From contig NZ_CP129212.1 in the NCBI RefSeq assembly GCF_030413175.1, positions 4,874,450-4,938,449 of the forward strand: a stretch of 64,000 bases of DNA. Reading direction: 5' to 3'. The notes beneath the pieces were generated by a model. It did no database searches. It was not told the DNA's origin and worked only from the letters and a program-made list of their open reading frames with translations. Origin of the DNA: Bradyrhizobium roseum (lineage in GTDB: Bacteria; Pseudomonadota; Alphaproteobacteria; Rhizobiales; Xanthobacteraceae). The translations under genes and the position numbers were made by a program. Positions 38,490 to 47,358 of this stretch are shown here, piece by piece. The stretch's first letter is position 1; each line of letters starts with the position of its first letter.

Positions 38490-38675
38490 ATGTCCCGGAC
38501 CAGATTTACCGAGGCAGATATTAAGCGCGCTGTTCGAGGTGTGCTCGACGGCGGTGGCAAGGTCGCGCGCGTCGAGATTTGGCCTGACGGACGCATTTCT
38601 GTGTTGATTAAGGAAGAAGGATCGATTCCAATCAATCCTGACGACGACCCGGAGGTGTCCAGGAGACTGCTGTGA
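38490..38675 (+). CDS. Small conserved protein encoded upstream of integrase
   Basis: A 61-residue protein starting MSRTRFTEADIKRAVRGVLD with a charged beta-strand middle (VEIWPDGRISVLIKEE). It is coupled to the integrase gene: its stop overlaps the integrase GTG start as GTGA. Position and size suggest an accessory factor of the element, for example a recombination directionality factor, but no known excisionase motif is clear. The function is unassigned. Confidence 0.7.
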   Translation: MSRTRFTEADIKRAVRGVLDGGGKVARVEIWPDGRISVLIKEEGSIPINPDDDPEVSRRLL

Positions 38676-39922
38676 AAAGACTAGGACGATCCGCGCTGCC
38701 GTTACCTAGGTACACTCTGCGCAAACGTCTCGGGGGTGGCAGCTTCGGGTATTTCTTCAACATCCCGACGTGGGCCCGCAAGCAGGGGTGTTCGGTCGCC
38801 AACGAAGCCCTTGGTACTGACTACAAGCGCGCAGTCACACGCGCAGAACAGATTTTGTTGCCCGCTTTTGATAGTTGGCGCACCGGCGGTGAGGACGCAG
38901 ATCCGATCGGAATTGGGGTGGTCGTTGGCACGCTGGATTGGATGTTTCATCTCTACCGCCAAACCTGGTCCCAAAAAACAGCCAAGCGACTGCAGCCTTT
39001 AAGCCCCGGCCAGTGCCGTGTTCATGAGACTGGTATCAAGATGATTTGCGAGTACATCTTGCAAGATGGCCGGCGACTGGGGACGCGCCGGGTCCCAAGT
39101 ATCGATACCGCTTTCGTAGATCAGCTCTTTGAGAAGCTGCTATTCAAAGAGGTGAAGGGCCAGAAGATCGAACGCCGCACGACGGTCAATCACGCGATGA
39201 AGACCGCGCGCAGTGCATGGAACACCATTTCCCGAGCACATCCAGGCTTGTTTCCGCCCCGCAATCCCTTTGAAAAGATGGGCCTGCAATCCAATTCGCG
39301 CGAAACGCCGCACGCGAGCTTTGCCGAGCTTGCAGCGTTCCGCACGATGGCGATCGAGATGGGGTATCCTTCGCTTGCAACGGGTGCCCTGATCGGCTGG
39401 GAACTGCTTCAGCGAGAAGCTCACATTTTCATTCGCTTCACGGCCGATCACTACCGTCCCCCGAGCCGGCCGAACCATGTCTACGTCATCAACTACAAGA
39501 CCAGCACTGGATCTTGGGAGCCACTATTCAATGCCAAGGGTAAGGCACTCTACCCGCTGCTAATGGCAGAGCTCGACGCGATCAAAGAGCTGCGTCCGAC
39601 AGGCGGTCTGATGTTGCGGCGTGATGGCAGCGGTCTGCCCTGGTTTGGCAAGGGTGAGATGCTGACTCAAGTCCAGCGCATCACGAAGAAGATTATCTTG
39701 GCTGCAGGTTTACGGCCTGAGCTGACTTTTACCTCCTTTGGTCGCCACGGCGGCACGACCGAAGCAAGCACATCCGGGCTGACGGAAACGCAGCTGATGA
39801 AGAAGGGTCAATGGTCGTCGTCGGTGGCCATGGCGCACTATCTGCACGACGACGATGAGGCCAAGCAGGATGCGCAAATGAAACGCATCAAGCGCCGTGC
39901 GAAACAAGCGAAAGGAAAGTGA
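38672..39922 (+). CDS. Tyrosine recombinase / integrase
   Basis: A 416-residue site-specific recombinase. The catalytic domain covers about 205-400: first Arg in ELLQREAHIF (R248), box II in TSFGRHGGTTEAS (R358, H359) and the nucleophile Tyr in VAMAHYLHDDD (Y390). The usual HxLRHT box is atypical, but residues line up. It starts with GTG coupled to the small upstream ORF. The gene ends 72 bp from the 3' end of tRNA-Gly, toward which it points, the standard layout of an element integrated in a tRNA gene. The C-terminal tail is Lys/Arg-rich. Confidence 0.88.
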   Translation: MKRLGRSALPLPRYTLRKRLGGGSFGYFFNIPTWARKQGCSVANEALGTDYKRAVTRAEQILLPAFDSWRTGGEDADPIGIGVVVGTLDWMFHLYRQTWSQKTAKRLQPLSPGQCRVHETGIKMICEYILQDGRRLGTRRVPSIDTAFVDQLFEKLLFKEVKGQKIERRTTVNHAMKTARSAWNTISRAHPGLFPPRNPFEKMGLQSNSRETPHASFAELAAFRTMAIEMGYPSLATGALIGWELLQREAHIFIRFTADHYRPPSRPNHVYVINYKTSTGSWEPLFNAKGKALYPLLMAELDAIKELRPTGGLMLRRDGSGLPWFGKGEMLTQVQRITKKIILAAGLRPELTFTSFGRHGGTTEASTSGLTETQLMKKGQWSSSVAMAHYLHDDDEAKQDAQMKRIKRRAKQAKGK

Positions 39923-39926
39923 ACAT

Positions 39927-39960
39927 TTGTCAGAATGAGAAACCGCGGCTTGTCAGAATG
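39927..39960. repeat. Direct repeats TTGTCAGAATG near the integrase end
   Basis: Two identical 11-bp copies at 39927-39937 and 39950-39960, 23 bp apart, lie between the integrase stop and tRNA-Gly. Short direct repeats in this position often serve as integrase arm-binding sites; that role is inferred. Confidence 0.45.
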
Positions 39961-39994
39961 GCAAAGCCTTGACACGCTAAGTTATTGAAAACAT

Positions 39995-40068
39995 TGGAGC
40001 GGGTGAAGGGAATCGAACCCTCGTATTCAGCTTGGAAGGCTGCTGCTCTACCATTGAGCTACACCCGC
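39995..40068 (-). tRNA. tRNA-Gly (TCC)
   Basis: The minus strand reads a complete cloverleaf of 74 nt including encoded CCA. The acceptor arms GCGGGTG and CACCCGC pair, the D-arm is TAGCTCAATGGTAGAGC, the anticodon loop CTTCCAA gives anticodon TCC, and the T-arm contains GGTTCGATTCC. The 3' end faces the integrase gene, so this tRNA is the likely attachment site of an element lying to the left. Confidence 0.95.
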
Positions 40069-40870: not shown

Positions 40871-42145
40871 TCAGCACTCCGAAATGTTGAAATCGACGCG
40901 CCGGTCAATCGCATCGCTGGCGTCGTCCCGGCCGGTGCCGATCAGCACTTCCCTGGAGCCGACGCCGGTCGCCTTCAACTTGTCGGCAAGTGCCGGCGAG
41001 CTGCTCTGCAGCAGATCCTTGATGTATTGCGCGCGCAGCACCGAGAGCCGCTCGTTCACCAGCGGCGGGCCGGTCTTCGAGGTGTGACCGACGATATTGA
41101 TGCAGCTGTTGCGCCGCCCTGCCCGCGTCGCGATCTGGCTGAGCCACATCGGATACGGCGCCGATATCTGCGGATCGTCCACGAACTGGGTCGAGCCCGG
41201 CTTGAACAGGAACCGCACCGACAGCTTCTTCGCACCCAGGCTGTAATCGACGAGGTTGCCGAAGGCATCGGTCGCGTCATCCCGCCGGTTGAGCCTCGAA
41301 TTGGCCAGATAGATGCCGGAGCGGACGCGCAGCTGATCGCCGCCCGTCATCTTGAGCGCGGTCCGGTAGAACGCCAGCGCTTCCCGATAGCGCTTGTCAT
41401 CATATTCGAGGATGGCGTCGCTGATCAGCGACGACGTACCGATCCGCTCGACGTAAACCGGATCGATGGGATCGCCGAGTTTGGTGCCCTGGCAGGTCTT
41501 GATGTACTGGCTGGTGGCCGGATCGGCCGCCCAGACCGGGGTGTCCGCGTACGCCGGGGTGGGCGTCACGTCGATCCCCTCGGGCTTCGCGCGTGCCACG
41601 CCCTTGGACACGATGCTCTTGCTGCGAAGATCGGCCAGCGCGAGGCAGATCCGGTAGGCGTCACGCGGTCCGTCGGCGGCGCCCGCATTGTTGATCGCGG
41701 TAAACGTGCCGATCAGCACGACGGGCGCGCGCGTCAGCGCCTCGGTCGAGAACGGACGCACCTCGAAACGCGGATAGGATTTACTGACCAGCGCCACGAT
41801 ACGATCCTGCATCAATCGGGTGGCGGTCGATTGGGCGCCGCTGATGCCGTCGATCAGCGGATCGACCACCAGTTCGATCTTTTCATTGCCCGCAGGAAGA
41901 TTGGCTTTTGAAAACAGGTCATTCGCCGCGCGCAGCAGCGCGTCGTCGAACGGGACCGGCGTCGGCGGCGGAGGCGGCGCGGCCTGCGTGCCTGCTGCGG
42001 GCGATGGCGCGCTTTGCGGGAACGCAGCCGTGGCACCGGCCAGCAGACAACAGATAGCGCATGCCAAGAGTTTCGCCGTTCGCAGTTTCGACGTTCGCGC
42101 CAGGTGCGTCACGCATCGTCTCCAATTCGCAAAGGTCTTATCCAT
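40871..42145 (-). CDS. Exported OmpA-domain protein with helical repeat region
   Basis: A 424-residue protein with an N-terminal signal peptide (hydrophobic about 25-43, cut near FPQSA) and a Pro-rich linker. A central region includes an EYDDKRYREALAFYRTALKM stretch resembling a TPR unit (about 270). The C-terminal OmpA-like domain (about 310-424) contains INIVGHTSKTGPPLVNERLS and ends RRVDFNISEC. OmpA domains bind peptidoglycan, so it should sit in the periplasm or on the outer membrane. It follows the caspase-like gene after 57 bp on the same strand, so the two are probably co-expressed. Confidence 0.88.
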   Translation of the reverse strand: MDKTFANWRRCVTHLARTSKLRTAKLLACAICCLLAGATAAFPQSAPSPAAGTQAAPPPPPTPVPFDDALLRAANDLFSKANLPAGNEKIELVVDPLIDGISGAQSTATRLMQDRIVALVSKSYPRFEVRPFSTEALTRAPVVLIGTFTAINNAGAADGPRDAYRICLALADLRSKSIVSKGVARAKPEGIDVTPTPAYADTPVWAADPATSQYIKTCQGTKLGDPIDPVYVERIGTSSLISDAILEYDDKRYREALAFYRTALKMTGGDQLRVRSGIYLANSRLNRRDDATDAFGNLVDYSLGAKKLSVRFLFKPGSTQFVDDPQISAPYPMWLSQIATRAGRRNSCINIVGHTSKTGPPLVNERLSVLRAQYIKDLLQSSSPALADKLKATGVGSREVLIGTGRDDASDAIDRRVDFNISEC

Positions 42146-42202
42146 GATGTACCGGCTGCGAGCCCAAAATAAATCGGTTCGAAATCCAATATCCGATCGC
42201 GA

Positions 42203-43711
42203 TCACCGGCAATTTCGCAGCACATCGCGATCGCTTTCTGAAAGGTCGCCAAGCTGTGCCCGGGCGTTGATTTCCTGGCAGCTCGCCGCGGCGCGCTTCC
42301 GCGGCGACGCCGCCGGCGCCGGCGTCATCGTCCGGGACTGTTCAAGGGCATAGACCGGCAAACGCGCCGTTTCCGTCGCAACTCGTTTTTCCGCGCGCTC
42401 CCGTTCCGCCTGCGCGCGGGCAATCCTCTCGGTCATCACGCGCTCGAGCGTCTGCCGCTCTTCGGCCAGCCGCGCCTTGTCGGCTTCATAGGCGGCGACT
42501 TGCGAAGCCAACCGCTCCTGCTCCGCTTTGGCCGCCTGCTCTTTCACCGCCTGCTCGCGTAAGCTGTCGGCGCGCGATGGACCGGCGGCCGCAGGGACGC
42601 TGCTCGAACCCGTCGCCGCGAGGACAGGCGCTGTCGTTGCCGCCGGGCTCGCTTTCGTCTCTGCCGGCTTCTCGCGCTCACGTTCGCGGCGCTCCGACAA
42701 CTCCGACATCGCCTTCCTGTAGCCGGCTTCGGCGGCCTCGAGATCGCGGCGCAGGCGAAGTTCCTTGTCGGCGTATTCGCGCGCCAGCCGTTCGCGCTCA
42801 CTGGCGTTCTCGATCGCATCGAGACGCGCGCGTGCAGCATCGAGCATGACGCTGTCGGGGAAGGCCGAAATAAATCTCTTCAGGTCGGCGGCGCCTGCCG
42901 AGGGCCCGAGCTTTTTCCAGGCGTCAATGTCGCTCTCCTTCGGGTTAAGATAAAAGTCCTGAAGCAGCGACACCGACAGTTCCGGAGTCTGCGCGCCCTG
43001 GGTCTCGCGATTGACGTTGACCGCGACACGGCGAAATACGGTCGCCACCTCGAGCCCGGGGACCTGGATCTCCCGCACCAGCGCGGCGGTAAACGGACTG
43101 TTGCGGCCGACACCGTCGGCAGCGACGCTGTTGGATTGCGTCGAATAGGCGATCAGCATGCCCTGCGAGCGCTCGATCTTGGCCAGGCCACGCGTCGCGC
43201 CGATACCGCGACTGCTCTTGTTATCCGCCACGCTGTTCGCAAAAGGATTGTCCCGGCAAGCGTCCAGCACCATCAGCTTGACGCCCGTGGTATAGTTGAG
43301 CGCTTCGACAACGTCGTCGAGCTTGATCAAATCGAACGGCGTGAATGAGCTCCCGATCTTCAAATCGACCGGCACCAGATAGTTCTGGCCGTTGATCTGC
43401 ATCCCGTGCCCGGAATAGTAGACCAGGCCCGCATCGGTGCCCCTCACCCGCTGGGCAAAGCGGCCGAGCGCGGCATACATCGCCGATCTGTCGAGGTCGC
43501 GGCCGTCGATGACGGCAAAGCCGACGCGCTTGAGTTGCTCTGAGATATCGTCCGCATCGTTACGGCTGTTGTCGAGCTCCGGCACCGAGCGGTAGGCGCC
43601 ATTGCCGATCACCAGAGCGACGCGCGGTTCGGCAGCGCGCGCCTCGGCCAGCAGGCCGAACGCGACCACAAGACCAACAGCGAAGCACCGGACCGCGGCA
43701 TCTATACGCAT
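42203..43711 (-). CDS. Exported caspase-like (peptidase C14) protein with intact dyad
   Basis: A 502-residue protein with a signal peptide at 1-26 (cut near ARA-AEPR). A caspase p20-like domain (about 30-260) has the catalytic His in VYYSGHGMQ (H102) and Cys in VLDACRDNPF (C152). It is followed by a long charged helical, coiled-coil-like region (about 295-470) and an Arg-rich tail ending DRDVLRNCR. Bacterial homologues cleave after basic residues. The start at 43711 was chosen because the signal peptide begins there; the longer frame runs through the divergent gene. It is upstream of the OmpA-domain gene and divergent from the DUF4399 genes. Confidence 0.9.
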   Translation of the reverse strand: MRIDAAVRCFAVGLVVAFGLLAEARAAEPRVALVIGNGAYRSVPELDNSRNDADDISEQLKRVGFAVIDGRDLDRSAMYAALGRFAQRVRGTDAGLVYYSGHGMQINGQNYLVPVDLKIGSSFTPFDLIKLDDVVEALNYTTGVKLMVLDACRDNPFANSVADNKSSRGIGATRGLAKIERSQGMLIAYSTQSNSVAADGVGRNSPFTAALVREIQVPGLEVATVFRRVAVNVNRETQGAQTPELSVSLLQDFYLNPKESDIDAWKKLGPSAGAADLKRFISAFPDSVMLDAARARLDAIENASERERLAREYADKELRLRRDLEAAEAGYRKAMSELSERREREREKPAETKASPAATTAPVLAATGSSSVPAAAGPSRADSLREQAVKEQAAKAEQERLASQVAAYEADKARLAEERQTLERVMTERIARAQAERERAEKRVATETARLPVYALEQSRTMTPAPAASPRKRAAASCQEINARAQLGDLSESDRDVLRNCR

Positions 43712-43918
43712 GACCGCCGCAGAATAGGCTAATTGAGGCCTGATTTCAACGGACGGCGCGCGCGCGTGTGATGGAGTGTGATCTGATCGCGTTGTCGCTT
43801 TCCGGATAGCGCGGGACAACCGGTGGAATGAAAACGCACGGCGTGCCGGATCATCATGATGTCCCGCGCCAACTTGTTGAACATCGAGGCGCATGTTAGC
43901 GTCGCGTGGGAGCTGTAC

Positions 43919-45160
43919 ATGGTTCGACTTGCAAGCCTCTGCCTGATCGTTCTTGCGACATTGGCTATCGACGCTCGTTTCGAGGCCGGCGCACAGCAGA
44001 CCGCTCCGACGAGAATTCCTTCCGCCGCAAAAGCCAGAATATATTTCGTCGATCTCAAGGACGGCGCGACGATCCCCTCCAAGGTCAGGATCCGCTTCGG
44101 GATCGAGAACATGGAGATCGCGCCGGCAGGAGTCGTTAAGCCGAATACCGGTCATCATCACCTTCTCATCGACACCCCATTGCCGCCACCCGATCAGCCG
44201 ATCCCAAGCGATTTCAACCACATTCATTTTGGCGCCGGCCAGACCGAGGCGGAGATTACGCTGCCCGCAGGAGAGCATACTTTGCAGCTCCTGTTGGGTG
44301 ATCACGCTCACATTCCGCACAATCCACCGGTCGTATCCGACGTCATTCGCGTCAGGGTCGATGCGGCGACCGTCGAAAAAATCCGAATGCCCGCGCCGGC
44401 TGGCGCCAGCGTCTCCCTGATCGAGCCCGTGGACGGCGCCACGGTGGGCCGCAATGTGAAGGTGAGGTTCGGCGTCTCCGGAATGCAACTGGCGCCAGCG
44501 GGCACCAACAAGCCCAACAGCGGACATCATCACCTCTTGATCGATACCCCGCTTCCGCCGCTAGATCGGGAGATCCCGAGCGACCTCAACCATCTGCATT
44601 TCGGCCGCGCCCAGACCGAGACGGACATCACGCTGGCGCCCGGCGACCATACCTTGCAGCTGTTGCTGGGCGACCACGAACATCTTCCCCACGATCCCCC
44701 GATCTTCTCCAAGGTCATCCGCATTCGCGTCGCGAATGCGGCGCCGGAAAAGGCCGCGCAGGCAGCACCCAAGGACGGCCGCCAGCCCTCGCCGCCCGAT
44801 GCCGCCGTCTATTTCGTTTATCCGACCAAGGGCGAAAGTATTTATCCGAACTCGACGATACGCTTCGGCCTGCGCAACATGGGCGTTGCGCCCGCTGGCA
44901 TTGCCAAGCCCAATACGGGCCATCATCACCTGTTGATCGATGTCGAGACGCCGCCGCTGGATCAGCCGCTGCCGAGTGATTTGAACCACATTCATTTCGG
45001 CAATGGCCAGACCGAGAAGAAGATCACACTTTCCCCGGGCAAGCATACGCTTCAATTGGTTCTGGCTGACGATCGCCATATCCCGCATGATCCGCCGGTG
45101 ATTTCAGAGCGCATCGAGGTGTTCGTCAAGAATGTACGAAAGCGGTCCCGTAGACGGTGA
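43919..45160 (+). CDS. Exported protein with three DUF4399 domains
   Basis: A 413-residue protein with a signal peptide (1-25) and three tandem DUF4399 units (about 40-145, 155-270, 295-400). Each carries GHHHLLID, then PSD-NH-HFG-QTE, then HTLQL plus a closing D-H-PH-PP. The regular His-rich pattern suggests metal binding in the periplasm. ATG 43919 has a GGGAG site; ATG 43856 is an alternative. The middle linker is Ala/Pro-rich. It is followed after 7 bp by a single-domain relative, and is divergent from the caspase-like gene. The function of DUF4399 is not established. Confidence 0.88.
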   Translation: MVRLASLCLIVLATLAIDARFEAGAQQTAPTRIPSAAKARIYFVDLKDGATIPSKVRIRFGIENMEIAPAGVVKPNTGHHHLLIDTPLPPPDQPIPSDFNHIHFGAGQTEAEITLPAGEHTLQLLLGDHAHIPHNPPVVSDVIRVRVDAATVEKIRMPAPAGASVSLIEPVDGATVGRNVKVRFGVSGMQLAPAGTNKPNSGHHHLLIDTPLPPLDREIPSDLNHLHFGRAQTETDITLAPGDHTLQLLLGDHEHLPHDPPIFSKVIRIRVANAAPEKAAQAAPKDGRQPSPPDAAVYFVYPTKGESIYPNSTIRFGLRNMGVAPAGIAKPNTGHHHLLIDVETPPLDQPLPSDLNHIHFGNGQTEKKITLSPGKHTLQLVLADDRHIPHDPPVISERIEVFVKNVRKRSRRR

Positions 45161-45167
45161 GAAAGTC

Positions 45168-45620
45168 ATGATGCGGCACGGACGATTTGCGACCGGGCTA
45201 TTGATTGTTTCGATGATGGCACTCGTGCCGGCGTCGGCGCCGCTGCAGATCGCGCAGGCGGCCGAGCGCACCGCATCTGCGCCGTCCGCTCTGGTGTATT
45301 TTCACTATCCTGTGGACGGCATGCGCGTGCCCGAGCGCTTCACGGTGAAGATCGGGCTGAAGGAAATGGGCGTGGCGCCCGCCGGCGTCGCCAAGCCCTT
45401 TACCGGCCACCATCATCTGTTGATCGATACCGACATGGTGTCGCCGGATCAGCCGATCCCCTCCGACTACAATCACATTCATCTGGGAGGCGGCCAGACC
45501 GAAGTGGTGCTGACGCTGCCTCCGGGCACGCACACATTGCAGCTGCTGCTCGGCGATCACGAGCACGTGGCGCACCAGCCTCCAGTCATGTCGAAGAAGA
45601 TCACGATCTATGTGCGCTAA
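45168..45620 (+). CDS. Exported single-domain DUF4399 protein
   Basis: A 150-residue protein with a signal peptide (hydrophobic 8-25, cut near AQAAE) and one DUF4399 unit: LVYFHYPVDGMRVPERF, TGHHHLLIDTD, PSDYNHIHLGGGQTE and HTLQLLLGDHEHVAHQPPV. It is closest in pattern to the units of the preceding gene, so the two probably arose by duplication. The start ATG has a GGTGAGA site; its end overlaps the next gene by 11 bp. Expected location is periplasmic. Confidence 0.88.
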   Translation: MMRHGRFATGLLIVSMMALVPASAPLQIAQAAERTASAPSALVYFHYPVDGMRVPERFTVKIGLKEMGVAPAGVAKPFTGHHHLLIDTDMVSPDQPIPSDYNHIHLGGGQTEVVLTLPPGTHTLQLLLGDHEHVAHQPPVMSKKITIYVR

Positions 45621-47358
45621 TCGGACTGCGATCCGCGCTGGCAGCCGGGCCGTCCTGGTCGCCCTTGCGTTGCTGATGGCGCTGATGGTGAACGCCACGG
45701 CCTTTGCCCAGGGCACGCCCGCCGAACCCCGGCGGGTCGCGCTTGTGATCGGCAATGGCGCCTATCCACAGTCGCCGATCGCCTCTGCCCCCGCCGACGC
45801 CCGCGCCTTTGCCGATGTTCTGCGCGAAGGCGGCTTCGACGTGGTCTACGCGGAGAACGCCCGGCGCGCGGAGATGGAGGCTGCGCTCGGTGCGTTCACC
45901 CGGAAACTGGGCTGGGGCGTCACAGCGATGGTTTATTTCGGCGGTCACGCCATCCGCTATCAGGACCGCAACTTCCTGCTGGCGGTCGATTCGAAAATCG
46001 TCAACGAGTCCGACATTCGCGCGGAGGGGATCGACATCGACCTCATCCTCGATCCGCTGATCGTCTCGCGTCCGGCCGGCGCCGTCGTCTTTCTCGACGG
46101 CGCGCGCAAAAATCCCTGGCAGCAGGCGCTGTCGCCAAGGCTCCGCGGACTTACCGGTCAACCGCCGATATCGGGCGTGACCGTGATCTATCCGGCGGCC
46201 CCGGGGGAAGTCGTCGGCGACGCGCCGCGCGAGGCGAACCTGTTCGCCGTCGAATTGATCAAGTCGGCCAAGGTGCAGGGATTGCCGTTCAAGGAAGTGC
46301 TCAAGCGAGTTCGAACCGCCGTCGCCCAGGCGACGCGCGACAAGCAGATGGTCTGGGAATCCTCACCGGCGCCGGAGTTCGTCATCAGTTCGGTGCGCAA
46401 ACCGGTTCGCGCCGCCGATTCGGTCGAGCAAGGTTTTTGGGACACGATCAAGGGCAGCGACAGCGCCGCCGACTTCAAGGCCTATCTCGATTCCTATCCG
46501 GATGGACCCTTTGCCGCCGCGGCGCGCGCGCGACTTCAGCAGATCGAGGGCGGCAGCCAGCCGAAGGTCGCCAGCACCCCGCCCGCGCCTGCCGCGCCCG
46601 CGCCTGCCGCGCCGCCTCCGGCCGCATCGCCTCCAGTCACATCGCAGATCGTCACCCGCGACTGCCTGCAATGCCCCGAAATTGTCCTCATACAGCCCGG
46701 CGCGTTCGAGATGGGCTCGACCGAGATGTTCGATTTCGAAGCGCCGGTGCATCAGGTCTCGATCCGCAAGCCGTTCTACATCGGCCGGCGCGAAGTCACG
46801 TTCGAGGAGTGGGACGCCTGCCTGGCCGAAGGCGGCTGCAAGCAGAAGCCCGATGACCGCGGCCTCGGGCGCAGCCGGCGGCCCGTCACGGATCTGGATT
46901 GGGACGACGCCAAGAGCTATGTCGCGTGGCTGTCGCGGAAGACCGGCAAGACCTACCGGCTCCCCTCGGAAAGCGAGTGGGAGTACGTCGCCAGGGCCGG
47001 CACGACGACGACCTATCCCTGGGGACGGACCGTCGACAAGGACAAGGCCAACTGCGTCGGCTGCACCAGCGATCCCGTCAAGAAGGCGATCGATGTCGGA
47101 TCGTTTCCGCCCAATGCATTCGGGGTCTACGACATGGCAGGAAATGCCGCGGAGTGGGTCGAGGACTGCTGGAGCGACAATTACAAGGGCGCCCCGACCG
47201 ACGGATCCGCGTGGATCAAGCCGCAATGCCGCGAGCGGGTGCTTCGGGGTGGGTCGTTCAATAATGATCCGCGGTATCTGCGGTCGGCGGCAAGGTTCAA
47301 ATACGACCAGAATGTCAGGTTTTATACGAATGGCTTTCGGGTCGTTCGGGAGAATTAG
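45610..47358 (+). CDS. Exported pseudo-caspase fused to an FGE-like (SUMF1) domain
   Basis: A 582-residue protein: signal peptide 1-34 (cut near AFAQG), caspase-like domain about 40-265, linker with a short helical repeat (DFKAYLDSYPDGPFAA), Ala/Pro-rich hinge about 325-345, and an FGE-sulfatase-type domain about 355-582. The caspase His is kept (YFGGHAIRY, H113) but the Cys position reads LDGARKNP (A165), so peptidase activity is unlikely. In the FGE-like domain, RGGSFNNDPRYLRSAAR and GFRVVREN lack the active-site cysteines of true formylglycine-generating enzymes. It is probably a binding or scaffold protein. The start overlaps the DUF4399 gene. Confidence 0.9.
   Translation: MCANRTAIRAGSRAVLVALALLMALMVNATAFAQGTPAEPRRVALVIGNGAYPQSPIASAPADARAFADVLREGGFDVVYAENARRAEMEAALGAFTRKLGWGVTAMVYFGGHAIRYQDRNFLLAVDSKIVNESDIRAEGIDIDLILDPLIVSRPAGAVVFLDGARKNPWQQALSPRLRGLTGQPPISGVTVIYPAAPGEVVGDAPREANLFAVELIKSAKVQGLPFKEVLKRVRTAVAQATRDKQMVWESSPAPEFVISSVRKPVRAADSVEQGFWDTIKGSDSAADFKAYLDSYPDGPFAAAARARLQQIEGGSQPKVASTPPAPAAPAPAAPPPAASPPVTSQIVTRDCLQCPEIVLIQPGAFEMGSTEMFDFEAPVHQVSIRKPFYIGRREVTFEEWDACLAEGGCKQKPDDRGLGRSRRPVTDLDWDDAKSYVAWLSRKTGKTYRLPSESEWEYVARAGTTTTYPWGRTVDKDKANCVGCTSDPVKKAIDVGSFPPNAFGVYDMAGNAAEWVEDCWSDNYKGAPTDGSAWIKPQCRERVLRGGSFNNDPRYLRSAARFKYDQNVRFYTNGFRVVREN

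Follow-up and report, generated by a model that had tools for sequence, protein, structure and literature searches.

A divergent cluster of five genes in Bradyrhizobium roseum (positions 40871-47358 of a 64,000-nucleotide stretch of contig NZ_CP129212.1, hereafter the window) combines caspase-like, OmpA-like and DUF4399 domains with a domain resembling formylglycine-generating enzyme (FGE). Comparison with related loci shows that the FGE-like/DUF4399 pair is the constant element of such clusters, while the outputs are exchanged: the caspase is active, dead, separate, absent or swapped for a transmembrane class III cyclase. On the minus strand, the window encodes a caspase (42203-43711) and an OmpA-domain protein (40871-42145); on the plus strand, a triple DUF4399 protein (43919-45160), a single DUF4399 protein (45168-45620) and a fusion of a pseudo-caspase to the FGE-like domain (45610-47358). 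The cluster itself has no cyclase gene. We give roughly even credence to the reading that it represents one version of a modular system of the cell envelope, in which a periplasmic FGE-like/DUF4399 pair would act as a sensor or gate with exchangeable outputs. This reading builds on the observed gene content, domain make-up, catalytic residues, adjacency and partner exchange, and on a deep split common to the DUF4399 and FGE trees.

The FGE-like/DUF4399 pair and its partners

DUF4399 is present in 155 of 195 Bradyrhizobium genomes. Among 60 loci drawn from this list, but after the FGE listing was known, and with loci picked by FGE match excluded from the rates, an FGE-domain gene adjoins DUF4399 in 51, of which 48 carry a cyclase-FGE fusion; one further locus at a contig end (L194) has a caspase in the examined stretch, but not FGE. 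This commonest arrangement (type C) consists of a cyclase, one membrane helix and an FGE-like domain, followed by a single DUF4399 gene. The single helix is found in 77 of 77 cyclase rows (73 distinct open reading frames, ORFs), and the cyclase domain exceeds the Pfam cut-off in both proteins tested. Class III catalytic residues are in place, with Asn and Arg in all 77 rows, the two metal Asp in 73 and 75, and Lys in 75; the remainder are gaps, and no row has a substituted catalytic residue. Because the cyclase is cytoplasmic, the FGE-like domain periplasmic and a soluble exported partner is encoded next door, we read type C as a sensor arrangement.

The arrangement of the window (type A: active caspase, OmpA protein, pseudo-caspase/FGE fusion and DUF4399) recurs in L102, L103 and L104 and, on cut contigs, in L105 and L106, the OmpA protein of L105 lying beyond the contig end. 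Type B, represented by 15 loci chosen by FGE match (L107-L121), has a double DUF4399 gene and a caspase gene divergent from an FGE-only gene. The members of this trio, as far as ORF calling separated them, have relatives in 13 of 14 other loci, and the flanking ORFs in at most five, except for an extra caspase in L115. A fourth form was seen in two loci (L190, 6781-8472; L191, 3694-5334), in which an N-terminal part with a hydrophobic helix and a CxxC motif replaces the cyclase, together with the FGE-like and DUF4399 domains.

Outside Bradyrhizobium, searching named genomes with the fusion as query gave 157 relatives, of which the best 80 were examined; FGE and DUF4399 are both found in 54 of these 80 loci. 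They lie within 269 bp of each other in 50 loci and about 3 kb apart in four, distances that were taken between stop-to-stop ORFs and understate the gaps, and their orientation is divergent in 30, on the same strand in 23 and convergent in one. The preliminary description of this DNA had staked its case on the five genes occurring together in other genomes, and they do: the same order is found in 12 further loci, ten of them from Bosea (L307, L308, L310-L317) and two (L309, L335) from Rhizobiales/Hyphomicrobiales records. One locus (L321) contains a cyclase-FGE gene, a double DUF4399 gene and a dead-caspase/FGE gene. In Methylobacterium, a cyclase gene was observed 3.4-3.6 kb downstream of the dead-caspase/FGE gene in five of six loci (L327, L328, L354, L356 and L357; not L344).

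A second family carrying the pair is probably the Burkholderiaceae, since named homologues come from Burkholderia, Paraburkholderia, Caballeronia, Cupriavidus and others. DUF4399 occurs in 26 of its 80 genomes and beside an FGE gene in 19 of these 26, four of the seven unlinked genomes being covered by 1.5-kb flanks only. Usually, two tandem DUF4399 genes are divergent from an FGE or caspase-FGE gene, and the FGE-like domain is often fused to an active caspase; the 20 regions of this family (18 linked, two unlinked) were chosen after the first locus results. Some genomes are counted twice, in the genome set and among the named records. Across 20 linked loci chosen from different groups, to which the pair is common by choice, a flanking ORF (198 in all) has relatives in 0.33 of the 19 other loci on average (maximum 3), so that no long common gene order carries the pair along.

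Phylogenetic trees, whose rows were subsampled and whose roots are arbitrary, place the FGE-linked DUF4399 domains in one lineage. In the DUF4399 tree of 111 rows, which like its predecessor has only 110 columns, the separation of linked (65) from stand-alone (46) domains needs one change (branch 99/86), and the earlier tree of 93 rows gave the same split (98/91). A deep split sets the cyclase type, the Burkholderiaceae type and L360 against the caspase types of the Hyphomicrobiales in both the DUF4399 tree (100/89 for the first of these groups) and the FGE tree of 57 rows (100/98). In the latter, caspase fusion needs at least nine changes and cyclase fusion two; the five partner states together need 15, but two of them depend on a separate caspase lying within the examined stretch, and we therefore rely on the fused-or-not count of at least nine. 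Type B FGE domains form one clade (95/90) and their neighbouring caspases two, one of which is sister to the type A caspases (100/97), and L103 combines a type A fusion with type B1-kind DUF4399 domains.

Components of the cluster

Genes and domains of the cluster agree with the preliminary description. A simple hydropathy scan detects one hydrophobic, signal-like N-terminal stretch in each of the five products, all of which look exported, and the rightward genes are tightly packed, with a 7-bp junction followed by an 11-bp overlap. Although the ORF of the triple DUF4399 gene begins at 43856, the ATG at 43919 agrees with the signal-like stretch and was taken as the start; with it, the divergent intergenic region (43712-43918) spans 207 bp instead of 144 bp. 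Given that the 7.32-Mb host genome has 17 caspase domains, five FGE-family domains and no DUF4399 genes besides these two, the meeting of all three at one locus is not an effect of density.

The leftward caspase matches PF00656 (5.5e-44) with the p20 domain at about 42950-43624, and alignment locates an intact His-Cys dyad at His102 (codon 43406-43408) and Cys152 (codon 43256-43258), followed by an extended Ala/Glu/Arg-rich C-terminal tail. Its nearest solved relatives are structures of the MALT1 paracaspase (best 3.3e-11), and the similarity includes the region of the Asp ahead of the Cys, a possible hint at cleavage after basic residues. The caspase domain of the fusion (45730-46365; PF00656, 9.3e-22) is a pseudo-orthocaspase, that is, a p20 domain with a substituted dyad: His113 (codon 45946-45948) is retained, while Ala occupies the Cys position (165; codon 46102-46104). 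Asp163 aligns with the Asp preceding the catalytic Cys of MALT1, which we take to have a role in the basic pocket. Among 119 listed homologues of the fusion, the Cys site is Ala in 93, Ser in 17, Gly in seven and Thr in two, and never Cys; the His is retained in 113 and Asp163 in all 119. Retention of both residues fits an adaptor, as had been suggested for the inactive homologue, or a decoy. By comparison, the dyad is intact in all 118 readable homologues (120 listed) of the Burkholderiaceae-type caspase-FGE fusion.

Across the locus set, fused caspases are dead in 35 rows and intact in 14. Of 68 rows with a stand-alone caspase, 65 have it intact, some from loci cut before the FGE part. In the Bosea and the Bradyrhizobium type A loci, the dead fused caspase is accompanied by a separate active one. 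Of the periplasmic caspase with an inactive homologue envisaged earlier, the exported active enzyme and its dead fused relative stand, but the constant centre is the FGE-like/DUF4399 pair instead of the caspase. A short segment that looks helical (roughly W..I..S..DF..YL..YP..FA..AR.RL) comes after the caspase domain in both caspase proteins of the window; it also precedes FGE in L277, which has no caspase, and is perhaps the trace of a lost domain.

The FGE-like domain of the fusion (46669-47349; PF03781, 5.5e-53) is of PvdO type: its nearest solved relative is PvdO (PDB 5hha, 1.5e-50), although its score against the PvdO equivalog model NF051459 is 200.9 bits, compared to a cut-off of 500. 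We take true FGE/SUMF1 to carry a copper-binding cysteine pair after a GGS motif. This pair is absent, with no Cys, from all 158 linked FGE rows with a recognised motif (91 from the genus together with L264 and L277, 49 named and 18 of the Burkholderiaceae type), and no Cys was seen by eye in seven further linked rows without the motif; an FGE-family gene of the host genome (L222) has it. On account of the missing cysteines, we reject formylglycine activity for the linked domains. Unlinked PvdO-type rows likewise have no cysteine pair, and its loss is therefore not a mark of linkage.

Matches to PF14347 (cut-off 28) identify DUF4399 in three stretches of the triple protein (44090-44359, 44462-44731 and 44858-45130; 362.9 bits) and in one of the single protein (45345-45617; 124.3 bits). 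The latter contains the invariant histidines His93, His94, His95, His117 and His145 (numbered from the ORF start at 45132), and the domain models as an Ig/Fn3-like sandwich. These histidines suggest that DUF4399 may bind metal and, together with the conserved adjacency, agree with the histidine-rich partners of the preliminary description. A sequence-based search returned no credible solved-structure relative of DUF4399, and no established function was found in the open-access literature. One apparent natural fusion of DUF4399, caspase and FGE (P0205) has a truncated FGE domain and, at the junction, another signal-like stretch; it is most likely a frame error and was not used.

The OmpA-domain protein comprises an N-terminal region (residues about 60-305) and a C-terminal domain with the OmpA-like peptidoglycan-binding fold (residues 335-405, about 40931-41143; OmpA, 28.5 bits against a cut-off of 27.2). 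Diaminopimelate is presumably held by the Asp of GHTD and the Arg of LSxxRA in OmpA-like domains; here, Arg370 is present, but Ser355 replaces the Asp, both in 21 of 21 sequences. In a fold search with the N-terminal region, the match list was taken up by the OmpA part. Just left of the cluster, a 416-amino-acid ORF (38672-39922), the C-terminal part of which appears tyrosine-recombinase-like by eye and which has no Pfam match, ends beside a tRNA-Gly gene (39995-40068, minus strand); they lie in a stretch of lower G+C, and 38672-40068 is possibly the end of an integrated element.

A candidate envelope sensor and competing explanations

In the modular envelope system that we propose, the constant pair would consist of a periplasmic FGE-like (PvdO/SUMF1-type) domain and one to four DUF4399 domains. 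DUF4399 would bind the FGE-like domain in a ligand-dependent manner, with a metal ion or a small molecule of the periplasm as the most likely ligand, and the binding state would be passed on to the part attached to, or encoded with, the FGE-like domain. In most Bradyrhizobium loci, a class III cyclase on the other side of a single membrane helix would be this output, and in the probable Burkholderiaceae an active caspase; wherever the pair stands beside caspases, it would gate proteolysis. In the lineage of the window, the dead caspase domain may serve the separate active caspase as a docking site or decoy, and the OmpA protein may tie that active caspase to the envelope. Physical binding, the ligand, the direction of the signal and proteolysis after Arg or Lys are the parts of this scheme that we infer. 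More tentatively, FGE-like and DUF4399 domains could constitute a new class of periplasmic receptor that responds to one envelope signal in both Alphaproteobacteria and Burkholderiaceae and feeds into either second-messenger synthesis or caspase proteolysis; the fused caspase, where a separate active one is present, would have decayed to a conserved adaptor, paralleling inactive caspase homologues that control active ones.

Several observations weigh against such a system. In eight of the 60 Bradyrhizobium DUF4399 loci, the examined stretch contains neither FGE nor caspase, and no FGE neighbour was found in 20 of 20 class-level loci (covering 20 of 34 other DUF4399-bearing genomes) or in 18 of 20 phylum-level loci (drawn chiefly from the first entries of a list of 84 genomes); DUF4399 as such therefore needs no FGE. 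Among the best 80 relatives of the fusion, 26 loci are without the pair: four lie on short or cut contigs (L322, L341, L345, L358), 21 are mostly more distant, e.g. from Acidobacteria and Holophagales, and L332, a dead-caspase/FGE gene, is a true exception because its 9-kb flanks are free of DUF4399. Six active caspase-FGE fusions (L294-L297, L299, L300; 728-860 amino acids) stand beside an OmpA relative with no DUF4399 in the stretch, and of four ORFs of about 900 amino acids with an FGE domain (L065, L067, L068, L070), two (L065, L068) join a caspase, a repeated segment and FGE with no DUF4399 within 1.5-kb flanks. Twelve loci with a dead fused caspase (e.g. Methylobacterium L327 and L328) contain no separate active one in the examined stretch, so that a dead domain serving an active caspase is not the rule everywhere. 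Putative specificity positions in DUF4399 (113, Asp/Glu to Arg/Phe/Lys/Tyr) and FGE (565-577) speak for the proposed pairing, yet can also come from descent alone. The FGE-like domain has its nearest studied relative in PvdO, a presumed enzyme (available text of PMC6206403).

In the main alternative, unlikely in our judgement yet to be taken seriously, the FGE-like domain would work as a PvdO-like oxidoreductase, either modifying DUF4399 or receiving a metal from it, and the product would be matured or removed by the caspase. PvdO is described as necessary for the final oxidation step of the periplasmic maturation of the pyoverdine fluorophore, and as inactive when purified (PMC6206403). While this relationship and the invariant histidine set of DUF4399 speak for an enzyme, the linked domains are without the cysteine pair of true FGE and remain below the PvdO equivalog cut-off, and their fusion to a cyclase across the membrane is the design of a sensor rather than an enzyme. 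It is improbable that the genes are independent and owe their proximity to common descent or a shared promoter region without acting jointly. Because loci within a single genus share ancestry, their association counts are not independent of each other, and one lineage of linked DUF4399 is expected from plain descent as well; however, orientation varies while the set persists, flanks differ, partners swap around the constant pair, and the pair spans Alphaproteobacteria and the probable Burkholderiaceae family.

A caspase-based death or anti-phage system appears very improbable. Caspase domains are known in defence systems and PADLOC returned weak matches for the caspase (1.6e-05) and for the OmpA-domain protein with ZorB (2.7e-05), but the latter is restricted to the OmpA-like part, the EACC1-associated caspase model NF047832 gave 49.5 and 31.4 bits against a cut-off of 140, all five products look exported, and no pore or other effector gene was recognised among the five. 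We consider a link to photosynthesis, as proposed for bacterial pseudo-orthocaspases (available text of PMC6426788), scarcely credible. The host genome has two photosynthetic reaction-centre genes (G000:C1:2088985-2090671), making the strain probably a photosynthetic Bradyrhizobium, and the His-Ala type occurs among Rhizobiales pseudo-orthocaspases (PMC6426788), but reaction-centre genes were found in only two of 13 module-bearing genomes searched, and in two of eight with a dead fused caspase.

Relation to described systems and implications

Transmembrane class III adenylate/guanylate cyclases with periplasmic sensor domains exist, and type C resembles them in its intact cyclase, one membrane helix and exported C-terminal domain; unlike them, it has an FGE-like domain and a soluble DUF4399 partner. 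Other parts of the cluster are already on record. Asplund-Samuelsson et al., 2012 (PMC3501461) listed 33 metacaspase-FGE-sulfatase fusion sequences and OmpA domains in 14 metacaspase operons, which are similar to the window in the fusion of a caspase to an FGE-type domain and in the OmpA neighbours. Formylglycine modification was speculated upon there, while the linked FGE domains described here have no cysteine pair, and the available text of that paper mentions neither DUF4399 nor a cyclase version. Similarly, the pseudo-orthocaspases abundant in Rhizobiales (PMC6426788, 2019) have lost the His-Cys dyad and include the His-Ala type, but the available text reports no FGE/DUF4399 neighbourhood, and the photosynthesis link misfits most carriers tested here. 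PvdO is likewise periplasmic; it differs in serving pyoverdine synthesis, where dihydropyoverdine is its presumed substrate (PMC6206403). DUF4399 is also a predicted partner of a membrane protein in Phaeobacter, within the tropodithietic acid cluster (PMC13311259, available text), but there DoxX replaces the FGE-like protein. The NnrR-dependent Bradyrhizobium caspase gene of the literature was not shown to belong to this cluster. In the open-access texts available, we found no paper linking caspase-FGE fusions or pseudo-orthocaspases to DUF4399, or describing the cyclase exchange, and the conserved five-gene set is apparently undescribed.

Caspases are widespread in bacteria, yet little is known of what they work with and what triggers them, and caspase-FGE fusions have been recorded since at least 2012 with their role only speculated upon (PMC3501461). 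The FGE-like/DUF4399 pair offers one testable unit for this problem. Its cyclase form gives a measurable output, cyclic AMP or cyclic GMP, for a pair that is also found beside caspases, and the ligand could therefore be searched for with a simple reporter. Taken together, the gene set suggests a new kind of cell-envelope control unit.

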